DNA of 64,000 nucleotides, taken from positions 1 to 64,000 of the forward strand of contig JAAETI010000519.1 of NCBI GenBank assembly GCA_024228555.1, written 5' to 3'. A program made the position numbers and the translations under genes. A model generated the notes under the pieces. That model saw only the letters and a list, made by a program, of their open reading frames with translations, was not told the DNA's origin and did no database searches. Every line of letters begins with the position of its first letter. Within the stretch, counting starts at the first letter, position 1. This DNA is from a bacterium (lineage in GTDB: Bacteria; Actinomycetota; Acidimicrobiia; Spongiisociales; UBA5794). Below, piece by piece: positions 131-5,483 of this stretch.

Positions 131-454
131 CTATCCGTTGCACCATGGCGCACGCCTGATCTGGGCCAAGACCGCAGATCCATCGGCTCGGTCGGGCAGC
201 GAGTCGTCCGCTCGAACAGATAGGTGTGCATCCTCTTGAATGTAGAGGTCTGCGAGTTCTCGGAGGTCGGTACCGCTCGCACAGATATCGTCGAGACGGG
301 ACCGCCACACATCCTCATTCATCTGGTTCAGACCCACGCTGTTCGCCCAGATCCCGATCGCATCGGAAAGATTGTCGTCCTCCCACGGGGAGCTATCCCC
401 GCATCCGGTGAGGAGTATGACACCAATCAGCGTCCCAACGAACCGCCGTGACAT
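131..454 (-). CDS. Small predicted lipoprotein of unknown function
   Basis: The protein is 107 residues starting at the ATG at 454, chosen because it opens with a classic lipoprotein signal: Met-Ser-Arg-Arg, a hydrophobic stretch, then a lipobox ending Leu-Thr-Gly-Cys near residue 18. The frame is open further upstream to 556 but that extension has no signal character. The mature part is short, acidic and without a domain I recognise; it holds one further Cys pair (Asp-Asp-Ile-Cys and Ala-Pro-Trp-Cys). It lies about 100 nt downstream of the nucleotidyltransferase gene on the same strand, so it could share its transcript. The role is unknown; anchoring to the outer face of the membrane is inferred from the lipobox. 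Confidence 0.55.
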   Translation of the reverse strand: MSRRFVGTLIGVILLTGCGDSSPWEDDNLSDAIGIWANSVGLNQMNEDVWRSRLDDICASGTDLRELADLYIQEDAHLSVRADDSLPDRADGSAVLAQIRRAPWCNG

Positions 455-552
455 CAGGCGCTGGACGGGTATGTCTTCAAGCCCTCGCAATTGACTATCA
501 AGTTGTTCTCGATGCCCCACCCGGCGTGCCCCGTGCAGGTCGGCGAGCGTTG

Positions 553-1131
553 TCATCGGAGGAGAATTGCGAGAGCAGCTCGTGCTCGATCGCGTCCGTT
601 CGGTGCGAGGAGTTGCCAGGCGGGTTGCTGAGGATCGGCCAGCTCGGTGCGGGCGCGCAAGCGTCGGCGGTCCTTGGCGCCATCTGAGTGGCTAGATCCA
701 GTGGTTCCTCGACAAGGGGCCGTAGGAAGGCCAGATCGAGGCGTTGCGCATCGGGGGGTGTCGTCGATGTCGACCGCCAGTGCCTTGGCAATGATGGCGC
801 CAAGGAGTGCCGGCCGGGGCACATGACCGCTGGAGGTGGTTGTGTGGATGGGGAGCAGTTCGGTTCTGCTGAGAGCTTGGGTGCCGCCGGGGACTTGGAG
901 TGTGCGACCCGGGGGCGTCGTCGTGAGGTTGGTGCGAGGGCCGAGCCCTTCTATAGCCAGGACATCGATACTTACACCATCTCGCCTGTAGCGGTGGGCG
1001 AGCCCCTCGGATGAAGTCGCTTCAAGGTTGAAGCCGCGCAGTTCAATCGCGGTGTCGAACGCAGCGACGCCTCCTGTAACGATGCGGGCGTTGACCAGTA
1101 CGTCGAGATCGACGGTGGGCCACATGGTCAT
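553..1131 (-). CDS. Nucleotidyltransferase-like (AbiEii-type toxin-like) protein with two compensating frameshifts
   Basis: The N-terminal half carries a nucleotidyltransferase-like acidic pattern (Val-Asp-Leu-Asp-Val-Leu-Val) followed by a conserved block ending in Pro-Gly-Gly-Thr-Gln-Ala-Leu-Ser-Arg-Thr-Glu, as in small nucleotidyltransferases paired with HTH antitoxins. Two single-base events scramble about 26 residues. Homology-like sequence (Asp-Ala-Gln-Arg-Leu-Asp-Leu-Ala-Phe-Leu) sits in another frame between the G6 run at 753-758, which reads as one base too long, and GGCGCC at 676-681, one base too short. After that the original frame resumes with Lys-Asp-Arg-Arg-Arg-Leu-Arg-Ala-Arg-Thr. 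The ORF stays open throughout, so either a protein with an altered middle is made or the indels are sequencing errors. It overlaps the upstream HTH gene by 4 nt (ATGA), implying coupled translation. Confidence 0.6.
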   Translation of the reverse strand: MTMWPTVDLDVLVNARIVTGGVAAFDTAIELRGFNLEATSSEGLAHRYRRDGVSIDVLAIEGLGPRTNLTTTPPGRTLQVPGGTQALSRTELLPIHTTTSSGHVPRPALLGAIIAKALAVDIDDTPRCATPRSGLPTAPCRGTTGSSHSDGAKDRRRLRARTELADPQQPAWQLLAPNGRDRARAALAILLR

Positions 1132-1796
1132 CGGCGTTGGGCCAACTCTGCGCCAGCACGGCGGCTCCGCTCGTCGTCAGCCTCCAGAAGATCAACCGCG
1201 ACGACAGGTCGCGGCACCACATCCATCTCGGGCTCAAAGGGCCACACCGATTCATCAACGACCCGCAGAACGACATTGGGACGTTCCGCATCGGGGTCTA
1301 GCCCGTACTGGTCGATAAGCGCTGCGATCCGAGCCGCCGGCACATATGCCTCCAAGAAGTCAGCGGCCAAGATATCTGCGCTGTAGTTCACCGCTGCACT
1401 CACCCCCGAACGGACCACACCGGTCTCCGCAGCCAGATGTTCCAATACCGACGGGTGGCCATAGAATCGGCGCATCTCGGCCCTCGCACCGAGCCGGGCC
1501 ACCAGGCCGGCTCGGCCCTTCTCAGCAAGGCGGCGACGCGCTCGAGAACGATCCACAGGCGATAGATCAGAGCCATCACCGTCGGCGACGGCCAGCACCG
1601 CCCACGCCGACGAGGCACGCCATGGCCTACCCGGTGGTCCGCGGTATCGTCTCAGACTCTCAAGAGCGCGGCGCTCAATTGCCCACTCTCGACCTATCTG
1701 ACGGCCAGCGAGGAGGTCATCGGCCAGCATCTGGCGAACCCGGCGAGGGCTCACCTCCTGATACTCAGCCGCTTCAACAACACTCAAAACATCCAT
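1128..1796 (-). CDS. HTH DNA-binding protein, probable antitoxin/autoregulator of the nucleotidyltransferase
   Basis: The 222-residue protein begins with an excisionase/MerR-like helix-turn-helix (residues about 3-50: Leu-Ser-Val-Val-Glu-Ala-Ala-Glu-Tyr, then Arg-Val-Arg-Gln-Met-Leu and Gly-Arg-Glu-Trp-Ala-Ile). The remaining 170 residues are rich in Arg and Ala with no domain I can name. It overlaps the nucleotidyltransferase gene by 4 nt. HTH protein followed by a nucleotidyltransferase is the arrangement of AbiEi/AbiEii-like toxin-antitoxin pairs, but the fold here is excisionase-like, so the analogy is by context. Autoregulation is suggested by a perfect 12-bp inverted repeat just upstream of the start codon. 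Confidence 0.6.
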   Translation of the reverse strand: MDVLSVVEAAEYQEVSPRRVRQMLADDLLAGRQIGREWAIERRALESLRRYRGPPGRPWRASSAWAVLAVADGDGSDLSPVDRSRARRRLAEKGRAGLVARLGARAEMRRFYGHPSVLEHLAAETGVVRSGVSAAVNYSADILAADFLEAYVPAARIAALIDQYGLDPDAERPNVVLRVVDESVWPFEPEMDVVPRPVVAVDLLEADDERSRRAGAELAQRR

Positions 1797-1799
1797 GAC

Positions 1800-1827
1800 A
1801 TAACCATACCGACAGCGGTATGGTTAT
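1800..1827 (-). promoter_or_regulatory. Palindromic operator over a leaderless promoter of the HTH/nucleotidyltransferase pair
   Basis: The arms ATAACCATACCG (1800-1811) and CGGTATGGTTAT (1816-1827) are perfect reverse complements separated by ACAG. On the minus strand the hexamer TATGGT (1808-1803) matches an actinobacterial TANNNT -10 element and lies 6 nt before the ATG at 1796, so the transcript would be leaderless. A dimeric repressor on the palindrome would cover the -10 element. This fits autorepression by the HTH protein encoded immediately downstream; binding itself is inferred. Confidence 0.75.
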
Positions 1828-2105
1828 GAAATACCCTTGTAGTCGTCGAGTGGGACAGGTCTCGAGGGCGACGATCGTCACGGTGGCTGTTCGACATCCC
1901 GCTCGCCGCAGTGCCGTTCGGAGATACCTCGAGGAATGCACGTTGTTGCTGCAGAATTGTGGATCTGGGGCGGGGAATGTCAGCAACGCTCCGTATCGAC
2001 AAGCCCTTCCAGTTCGCCCCATAACTGCCGTGAGGTGTGCACCATCCAGACGATCATTCAGTCGATAGGCCTTGAGTCCGCGCACTTGCACGCGGGTCGT
2101 ATCCT

Positions 2106-2117: not shown

Positions 2118-3593
2118 ATGGCTTCTGGACCCTCTGGTGAACCACCCGATAGAGAGCATCTGGCTGAGGCGGCCGCTTTGGATCAGTGGATCGGCTACAC
2201 CTCAGAACCCGATCCAGATCCGAAGGAGCGCTTTGATGTTCATCCGCTGTTGATCGTTGCAGCAGTGATTGCAATCGTCATCGTGGCGGCGATGGTGGTG
2301 CTTCGCCCGAGTGGTGTGGCGCAGGAACGTGCCGAGCGGGAATTGTCGGTCCTCGGTGTCCCCAGCATCTTCTATGCAGCTGAGGTCATCTCTGTCGGTC
2401 GATATCCGTGCGATTTCGACCCGGAGCTCGAATGCATCACGGTTGCTTTTGGCATCGAGCAAGGCCCAGACCGTGGCGAGACTTACTCCCAGGACTTCTT
2501 CCCGGGCGGTGCCATCCCGGACTTTGCGATCGGCCAATCGGTCGTGCTTGCGTATCGACCCGCGACCGGAGTGATCGAAGAGATGGCACTGGTTCCATGC
2601 TTGTTCGAGCCAGCGGACGATTGCGTCAACCTGCTGATTCGAATGACCGCAGGAGACACCGCGGGCACCGTGGTCACGTGGGAGCTCTCGGCGGATCTCG
2701 CCGATTATGTGGTTGGTCAGCAGGTGCAGGTGAACTTCCAAGGGGAAGGAGAAGGCACCGTTGTGGGCAGCGTGTCACCGGTCGCAATCGACACGCAGTA
2801 CTCGTTCTCCGACTTTCAGCGGCGGTCGGTCCTTATCTGGGTTGCGGTTGTCTTTGCGGTGGCAGTGATCGCTCTTGGTGGATGGCGCGGACTCGCCGCC
2901 CTATCCGGTCTGGGTATGACGGTCCTCGTGTTGTTGCTCTATGTGCTTCCCGCCATCCTGGACGGAAGGAGCCCCGTCGTCGTTGCCTTGGTGGGGTCGG
3001 CTGCGATCGCGTACATCGCGCTCTATCTGGCTCACGGGATCAACCTGATGACCACGACGGCACTGCTGGGGACCCTTGCCGCGCTGGTGATCACTGCACT
3101 GCTGGCGACGCTGGTCGTCTCACTGGCGAATTTCACGGGGCTAGCTAGCGAAGAGTCCGGTCTGCTAACCCTATTCCAGGGCGTCGACGTGCGAGGTCTG
3201 CTCCTTGCCGGGATGGTGCTCGGAGCAGCAGGCGCACTTGATGATGTCACCGTAACCCAGGCTTCTGCGGTGTGGGAACTGCATCACGCCGACCCGGCGA
3301 TGACGTCACAAGAGCTGTTCATGCGGGGATCGCGGATCGGAAGAGATCACATCGCTTCCACTGTCAATACACTGCTGCTCGCCTACGCTGGTGCCTCGCT
3401 GCCGCTGATGATCCTGCTCGTCCTCTCCCAACAGTCCCTTGGCTCGATCGTCAACAGTGAAGTGATCGCCGTTGAGGTCATTCGCACCCTTGTCGGCAGC
3501 ATCGGGCTCGTTGCGGCAGTGCCCATCACAACCTGGTTGGCGGCCCGCACAGTGCACACGGCCCATGGACGTGCCCGAGCCTCCTCGGTCTGA
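2118..3593 (+). CDS. YibE/F-like multispanning membrane protein
   Basis: The protein has 491 residues. A cytoplasmic N-terminus rich in acidic residues is followed by one membrane segment (about 42-63). Next comes an extracytoplasmic region of about 170 residues containing Cys pairs (Tyr-Pro-Cys-Asp and Leu-Glu-Cys; Val-Pro-Cys and Asp-Asp-Cys). A block of about seven hydrophobic helices runs from residue 237 to the end, with the motif Gly-Ala-Leu-Asp-Asp-Val-Thr-Val-Thr-Gln after the fourth. This layout and the Asp-Asp-Val motif match the YibE/F family, whose members are membrane proteins of uncertain transport function. The start is supported by the promoter element 6 nt upstream. The next feature downstream is the tRNA-Lys gene on the other strand. 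Confidence 0.8.
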   Translation: MASGPSGEPPDREHLAEAAALDQWIGYTSEPDPDPKERFDVHPLLIVAAVIAIVIVAAMVVLRPSGVAQERAERELSVLGVPSIFYAAEVISVGRYPCDFDPELECITVAFGIEQGPDRGETYSQDFFPGGAIPDFAIGQSVVLAYRPATGVIEEMALVPCLFEPADDCVNLLIRMTAGDTAGTVVTWELSADLADYVVGQQVQVNFQGEGEGTVVGSVSPVAIDTQYSFSDFQRRSVLIWVAVVFAVAVIALGGWRGLAALSGLGMTVLVLLLYVLPAILDGRSPVVVALVGSAAIAYIALYLAHGINLMTTTALLGTLAALVITALLATLVVSLANFTGLASEESGLLTLFQGVDVRGLLLAGMVLGAAGALDDVTVTQASAVWELHHADPAMTSQELFMRGSRIGRDHIASTVNTLLLAYAGASLPLMILLVLSQQSLGSIVNSEVIAVEVIRTLVGSIGLVAAVPITTWLAARTVHTAHGRARASSV

Positions 3594-4313: not shown

Positions 4314-5483
4314 ATGGATCCACTACGCAACCCCTACGCACCAGGAGCGGGAGTCAAGCCACCGCAGTTGGCCGGACGTGACGCCGATCTCGATGCATTC
4401 CGCGTGGTGCTGGAACGGGTCGGCAGAGGCCTCCCCGAACGATCGCTGATGATCTCGGGTCTGCGTGGTGTCGGCAAGACTGTGTTGCTTCGCGAGTTTC
4501 AGTCGCTCGCCGAGCAATATGAATGGTCCACCGCAAAGCTGGAAGGTCGCGAGGGGATGTCCTTGCGTGGGGCACTAGGCCGGGCCGTCCACCTACTCCT
4601 ACGTTCGCTGAACCGCCGGCACCGTCTCGAACACCGTTTTGAGCAACTGCTCGGTGTGCTCAAGTCGTTTGTGATTACCGCATCGCCCGGCGGCGAGTTC
4701 TCGCTCAAGCTGGAAGCAGATCCGGAGCCCGGTCGCGCCGACAGCGGTGACGATGAGGTTGACCTGACAGAGTTGCTCATAGAAGTCGGCAAAGCTGCGG
4801 CCTCGGTGCATACCGGTGTCGCCATCTTCATTGACGAGCTGCAAGACCTTCGCAGCGAGGACCTTGCCGCCATCGTCGGTGCTTTCCACGAGATCAGCCA
4901 GCAGCAACTCCCCGTGCTACTCGCCGGCGCCGGCCTGCCGCATCTACCTCAGGAGCTATCAGAATCGAAGACCTACGCCGAGCGGCTCTTTCGTTATCGC
5001 AACGTCGACAGCTTGTCGATGGCAGCCGCAACCGAGGCTCTCGTAGTTCCGGCGCAACGGCTTGGAGTTGAGTTCACCGAGCCGGCGATCGAAGCTGTCC
5101 TTGATGCGTCCGGTGGCTATCCGTACTTCATCCAGGCATATGGCAAGCACATCTGGGATGTTGCCGACCGCTCACCGATCGATCTCGAGGACGTGCAACT
5201 AGGCGCAAACGAAGCGCGTCGCGAGCTCGACGTCGGATTCTTCGGCACACGCTGGGATCGGGCAACACCGAAGGAGCGGGAGTATCTGCAGGCCATGGCC
5301 GAGTTGGGGGAGCAGCCGACACGGTCAGCTGCGGTGGCCGCCCACCTTGGCAAACCGGCAGGCAACTTGTCGGTCGCCCGCGACCAGCTGCTCAAGAAGG
5401 GGCTTATATACAGCCCGGGCCGCGGGTTGGTCAGCTTCACGGTCCCTCGTTTCGGCGAGTTCATCCTGAGTCGCCAAGACTGA
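4314..5483 (+). CDS. Solitary AAA-type ATPase with C-terminal winged helix
   Basis: The 389-residue protein has a Walker A motif Gly-Leu-Arg-Gly-Val-Gly-Lys-Thr at 49-56 and a Walker B Ile-Phe-Ile-Asp-Glu-Leu-Gln-Asp at 171-178. A helical lid with Gly-Gly-Tyr-Pro-Tyr follows, and the C-terminal 90 residues look like a winged helix (Ala-Val-Ala-Ala-His-Leu-Gly, Leu-Leu-Lys-Lys-Gly-Leu-Ile). This is the STAND/ORC-like architecture of single-gene ATPases often annotated only as ATP-binding protein. No partner gene is adjacent. About 100 nt of unusually AT-rich DNA precedes it, and GAGGT at about 4302 serves the ATG. The molecular role is unknown; DNA-associated or regulatory action is a guess from the winged helix. 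Confidence 0.75.
   Translation: MDPLRNPYAPGAGVKPPQLAGRDADLDAFRVVLERVGRGLPERSLMISGLRGVGKTVLLREFQSLAEQYEWSTAKLEGREGMSLRGALGRAVHLLLRSLNRRHRLEHRFEQLLGVLKSFVITASPGGEFSLKLEADPEPGRADSGDDEVDLTELLIEVGKAAASVHTGVAIFIDELQDLRSEDLAAIVGAFHEISQQQLPVLLAGAGLPHLPQELSESKTYAERLFRYRNVDSLSMAAATEALVVPAQRLGVEFTEPAIEAVLDASGGYPYFIQAYGKHIWDVADRSPIDLEDVQLGANEARRELDVGFFGTRWDRATPKEREYLQAMAELGEQPTRSAAVAAHLGKPAGNLSVARDQLLKKGLIYSPGRGLVSFTVPRFGEFILSRQD

Follow-up and report, generated by a model that had tools for sequence, protein, structure and literature searches.

Organization of the locus

The window analysed here is a stretch of 64,000 nt beginning at one end of contig G000:C519 in a draft Acidimicrobiia genome, and it contains, 0.5–1.8 kb from that contig end, a module of two genes for an HTH protein and a nucleotidyltransferase (NTase). 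The features of the module, and a small ORF next to it, are as follows:

131–556, minus strand: small lipoprotein ORF, likely start at 454, lipobox LTGC
553–1131, minus strand: remnant of a putative NTase toxin gene, AbiEii/MenT-like, 192 aa
676–758, minus strand: frame-shifted stretch of the NTase remnant, between two single-base length changes, at the site of the conserved motif-IV aspartate
1106–1111, minus strand: junction of a 168-nt in-frame deletion, as seen when the DNA and the protein are aligned to intact relatives
1128–1796, minus strand: putative antitoxin/repressor gene with an ATG start, 222 aa, comprising a Xis/BldC-type HTH (residues ~3–47) and an AbiEi_2-like domain (~116–222)
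1799–1828, minus strand: candidate operator, a perfect inverted repeat with arms of 13 nt each (1799–1811 and 1816–1828), a 4-nt gap and 100% complementarity
1803–1808, minus strand: –10 element TATGGT, at positions –12 to –7 from the HTH ATG
1826–1831, minus strand: –35-like element TTTCAT by consensus reading, with a 17-nt spacer to the –10

The HTH ORF comes first and overlaps the NTase ORF by the 4 nt of ATGA (1131–1128), as the first-pass annotation had stated. That annotation also had a lipoprotein gene following the module. The ORF is real, but it was rejected as a third module member, its homologues being unlinked to the module elsewhere and absent beside it in relatives; one genome (G039) has two lipoprotein copies close together (L108 and L111). 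Also beside the module are genes for a YibE/F-family membrane protein (2118–3593, plus strand; E 3e-76) and an AAA_16 ATPase (4314–5483, plus strand). Neither of these has a counterpart beside the module in relatives, among which there is no synteny.

An excisionase-type head on an AbiEi_2-like tail

The HTH protein was compared with 40 diverse homologues from Actinomycetota, giving 41 aligned sequences with the window protein included. All 41 match HTH_17 in Pfam, at residues ~3–47 of the window protein. By profile, the closest solved relative of this N-terminal part is the mycobacteriophage Xis protein 4j2n (E 9.4e-6), and Foldseek with the predicted structure gave Xis (TM 0.77–0.79 over the target) and BldC as the best folds. 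The model itself is of moderate quality (pLDDT 75), and the AbiEi structure 6y8q ranked 50th, without significance. The excisionase-like HTH proposed from the sequence at first sight is borne out. An identity as the excisionase of a mobile element was dropped, the likeness to Xis being limited to the HTH domain, and PADLOC matches of the family to mad1 and MTase_II were judged to be noise from the shared HTH, because the one printed match covers the HTH end only.

The rest of the protein had been described as about 170 residues of unknown type in place of an AbiEi antitoxin, and this description does not hold. Pfam AbiEi_2 (PF09952) is matched by 16 of the 41 homologues, with a best E of 3.5e-4, and eight also touch AbiEi_4. 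The window protein itself falls below the cut-off for PF09952 (E 0.0029; 18.4 bits against 21 bits). When the C-terminal part of the family (about residues 129–222) was aligned by HHalign to PF09952 sequences collected from genomes, the match reached 89% (E 2.2e-6, 93 columns); the two controls, the N-terminal part and the NTase, gave 0.3% and 0.2%. By these comparisons residues ~116–222 belong with the AbiEi_2 antitoxin domain, and the unusual part of the protein is its Xis/BldC-type N-terminal HTH. The AbiEi-type N-terminal winged helix is absent as such from all 41 members; in view of the eight AbiEi_4 matches, a distant kinship of the HTH_17 head with it is conceivable. No description of an AbiEi antitoxin with an HTH_17/Xis-type head was found in the literature searched, which covers few subscription papers. 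The HTH ORF is intact, and judging from its dN/dS of 0.16–0.20 the gene is under purifying selection.

The NTase family and its broken member in the window

Intact relatives of the NTase are ~248 aa long. Their closest representatives have no call as AbiEii in Pfam or NCBIfam, and most members have no match, so that motifs, profiles and folds were used as evidence. In AbiEii, four motifs have been defined: hG[G/S] (I), DhD with an Arg (II), a Lys (III) and +DxxD (IV) (PMC3985639). Across 24 sequences of the present family G43, D64, D66, K172 and D188 are invariant, and R60 (at least 90%) and D112 nearly so. Motif I (G43) and motif II (D64 and D66, preceded by R60) are therefore present, as is the motif-III lysine among hydrophobic residues, K172 of GAIIxKAxAV. 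Motif IV is partial: D188 has basic residues before it, giving +xxD rather than the +DxxD of AbiEii. The family profile matches MenT1 (8an4, E 0.0021), two of the 24 members match Pfam AbiEii (PF08843, best E 3.3e-6), and one copy on a plasmid is annotated "AbiEii/AbiGii toxin" by NCBI. The predicted structure is of high confidence (pLDDT 93); nucleotidyltransferases lead its Foldseek matches, with the NTase-like protein 5uvd as the best (E 9.6e-5). By motifs, profiles and fold, the NTase is a divergent relative of AbiEii and MenT with motifs I–III conserved.

The copy in the window is not intact. Compared with its relatives it lacks 56 codons near the N-terminus, through an in-frame deletion whose ends share the short sequence CGATC. 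Lost with it are motif I and, from motif II, the arginine. Further along, a pair of compensating single-base length changes shifts and then restores the frame, scrambling the motif-IV region. Mutations in each of the AbiEii motifs abolished or reduced toxicity (PMC3985639), so the window toxin should be inactive. The surviving part of the gene has a similarly low dN/dS, like that of intact copies, which suggests that the break is probably recent. A second pair with both genes intact is found in the same genome on another contig (G000:C421, L019; minus strand, HTH 3081–2425, NTase 2419–1676); it is ~55% identical to the window module and has its own, differing palindrome.

A probable palindromic operator over a putatively leaderless promoter

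The inverted repeat upstream of the HTH gene covers the –35-like element TTTCAT, the 17-nt spacer and the –10 element TATGGT, so the earlier description of a perfect repeat over the –10 stands, except that the arms are 13 nt long and not 12. Sixty shuffles of the DNA upstream of the gene yielded no repeat that scores as high, and a scan with the repeat's sequence gave no further match, either in the window or in shuffled versions of it. The –10 element is, as first noticed, only 6 nt from the HTH ATG, an arrangement consistent with a leaderless mRNA for this gene.

Upstream DNA could be read in 36 homologues, and in these the conservation of the arrangement was examined. The centre of the palindrome peaks at –17.5 from the start codon, followed by –18.5; the mean paired fraction is 0.61 at whichever of the two is better, compared with 0.32 ± 0.04 at other centre pairs, and the peak persists after close relatives are removed. 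Moreover, 20 of the 36 homologues have a TANNNT box whose last base is at exactly –7, where 500 shuffles give about one and at most six, and the –35-like element of relatives reads TTGCAT or TTGACA. The position of the operator is thus fixed in the family while its letters vary, with distant examples of changed letters in L018, L029, L059 and L060. Among plasmid copies, L151 shares the arrangement, with its centre at –17.5, while in L150 the palindrome is centred ~1 nt off. Six distant members (L050–L052 and L054–L056) have no palindrome at the expected place, which is partly owing to uncertain starts. The fixed centre together with the fixed –10 box makes it likely that the palindrome is a genuine operator and the promoter leaderless, and the HTH protein probably represses its own operon through the palindrome. 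A pattern for the window operator found no other site in the same genome, so the regulator probably acts on its own operon only.

In a single relative (L021, near position 1954) the HTH gene has AGG where close relatives have their ATG start, with operator and NTase intact; either the assembly is wrong at this point or the start has shifted.

Pairing and one-sided decay in Actinomycetota

Among the 39 HTH homologues that could be judged, 37 have an NTase gene directly downstream. The 41 aligned sequences divide into 27 with an intact NTase, ten with a broken one, two with none, and two that were not judgeable because of a run of N (L037, at first taken for a deletion of the NTase and not counted) or a contig end (L039). 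The order is regulator first and NTase second, adjoining or overlapping, as in AbiE operons. The two homologues without an NTase (L041 and L053) are both divergent, and they are the only ones that lack both partner and palindrome, the case that the first-pass annotation had named as refuting its proposal. In L053 (G504) the place of the NTase gene after the HTH gene is taken by an ORF that looks like a VapB/VapC pair.

Two reverse searches that started from the NTase returned 28 intact full-length NTases, every one with an HTH gene upstream. Beyond these came only fragments and two weakly NTase-like ORFs, at L143 and L144. Both ORFs lie within long open frames and have larger wHTH regulator ORFs nearby (336 and 381 aa), and they look like AbiEi_2-type pairs.

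Decay within the family is one-sided. Ten toxin genes are broken beside intact antitoxin frames (the window, L012, L015, L017, L028, L032, L038, L048, L054 and L058), and each intact toxin among the family loci or in the NTase-started searches had an antitoxin-like partner. Ten losses of the toxin against none of the antitoxin is the outcome expected of a toxin–antitoxin pair. One caution is that most of the sequences are draft metagenome assemblies, in which some single-base breaks may be errors, albeit errors expected equally in both genes.

Relatives of the module are carried on plasmids of Rhodococcus, Tsukamurella, Arthrobacter and Bifidobacterium, and the Tsukamurella paurometabola plasmid copy lies ~1 kb from ParA and ribbon–helix–helix (RHH) partition genes. 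Plasmid carriage and the lack of synteny both point to a mobile module. None of the phage records searched encodes the NTase.

Interpretation

With good confidence, we interpret the locus as a two-gene toxin–antitoxin operon of the AbiE/MenAT kind, in which the toxin of the window copy is broken, and what is left is a solitary antitoxin that has been under selection until recently. In an intact operon, the HTH protein would bind, with its Xis/BldC-type domain, the palindrome on the leaderless promoter of its own gene and repress the operon, and its AbiEi_2-like C-terminal domain would, from the domain relationship, neutralise the toxin. The toxin, a polymerase-beta-type NTase, may stop growth by adding nucleotides to RNA, with tRNA the probable target, as suggested by MenT. 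In the window, the loss of motifs I and IV would make the toxin inactive, and the module has probably been reduced to a self-repressing solitary antitoxin. The first-pass annotation had proposed a compact autoregulated module like a toxin–antitoxin system; the pairing and the conserved palindrome support this for the family, but the window does not have a working pair, since its toxin is without motif I and scrambled in motif IV. We file the module as a variant of AbiE/MenAT because the AbiEi-type winged helix is absent, motif IV is partial and Pfam AbiEii matches are few.

There are several other possible scenarios. The first concerns the meaning of the solitary antitoxin, which might not be a leftover but be kept as protection from related systems, whether newly arriving or already resident (anti-addiction). 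The intact ORF, the perfect operator and the low dN/dS would fit such a role, as would the intact paralogous pair in the same genome and the ten loci at which the antitoxin has outlasted the toxin. On the other hand, the equally low dN/dS of the toxin remnant points to a recent break, such that retention of the antitoxin may reflect time only, and the two operators of the genome differ, that of the window being without a second site. Retention for protection is a tentative idea, and we think it rather unlikely.

A second scenario is that the two genes serve defence or regulation in some way other than as toxin and antitoxin, with the HTH protein regulating transcription locally and the NTase acting as a housekeeping enzyme or modifying antibiotics (ANT/LnuA-like). 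Two antibiotic nucleotidyltransferases, ANT(2'')-Ia and LnuA, are indeed among the best-matching folds that Foldseek gives for the NTase, and the scarcity of AbiEii calls in Pfam and NCBIfam points the same way. Against it are the antitoxin-type C-terminal domain, the profile matches to MenT1 and AbiEii, the strict pairing, the decay of the toxin side only and the carriage on plasmids, and taken together these make it improbable. Least likely of all is that the breaks arose in assembly and that the living cell has a complete, unbroken pair: the genome is a draft of metagenome type in 1027 contigs with the module near a contig end, one length change sits in a run of six Gs, and the toxin remnant has the dN/dS of intact copies, but an in-frame 168-nt deletion with a short shared end sequence is typical of a real deletion, the two further changes are in the NTase gene with none in the adjoining HTH gene, a distribution that speaks against random error, and nine other family members have broken toxins.

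If the toxin–antitoxin interpretation is right, a pair of actinobacterial genes that is mostly unannotated (usually "hypothetical protein", on plasmids too) is now tied to AbiE/MenAT, and an antitoxin domain can stand behind a different DNA-binding domain. The intact and toxin-broken copies would also provide a natural series for asking whether there is a reason that antitoxins outlive toxins. More speculatively, and with considerable doubt on our part, the family might be a distinct and widespread actinobacterial branch of AbiE-like systems, defined by the exchange of the winged helix for a Xis/BldC-type HTH, a single palindrome spanning the promoter, a leaderless mRNA, and repeated decay to solitary self-repressing antitoxins that protect against related toxins.

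Comparison with known systems

The closest parallel in organization is AbiE (AbiEi–AbiEii) of Streptococcus agalactiae, a type IV toxin–antitoxin system in which the C-terminal domains of AbiEi suffice for antitoxicity (PMC3985639). Both are bicistronic with the regulator first, both pair an N-terminal DNA-binding domain with a C-terminal antitoxin domain, both have inverted repeats over the promoter (over –35, –10 and +1 in AbiE), and both NTases have G..DxD and the motif-III lysine. The module differs in that its HTH is of the Xis/BldC (HTH_17) type and not the winged helix of AbiEi, and in having one hyphenated palindrome with arms of 13–16 nt where AbiE has two 23-bp repeats; in addition its motif IV is partial, its start is probably leaderless and the toxin of the window copy is broken.

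MenAT1, MenAT3 and MenAT4 of Mycobacterium tuberculosis (PMC11375011, PMC7319586) are likewise actinobacterial with a DUF1814-type NTase, and the NTase profile matches MenT1 (8an4). MenA3 and MenA4 are AbiEi homologues, and inverted repeats cover the promoter of Rv2827c (MenA4). In contrast to the module, MenA1 is without an HTH, and MenA3 and MenA4 carry AbiEi-type winged helices. The similarity of the module's NTase to MenT is weak, and tRNA would be a putative target for it.

The regulator–NTase pairs with AbiEi_2 (PF09952) have, by profile comparison, the same C-terminal domain; their regulators are mostly ~350–400 aa long with another N-terminal part, whereas that of the module is ~220 aa with HTH_17. 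Finally, excisionase Xis and BldC resemble the N-terminal ~50 residues of the HTH protein; unlike Xis, this protein is fused to an antitoxin domain, and no linked recombinase was seen at the window module.
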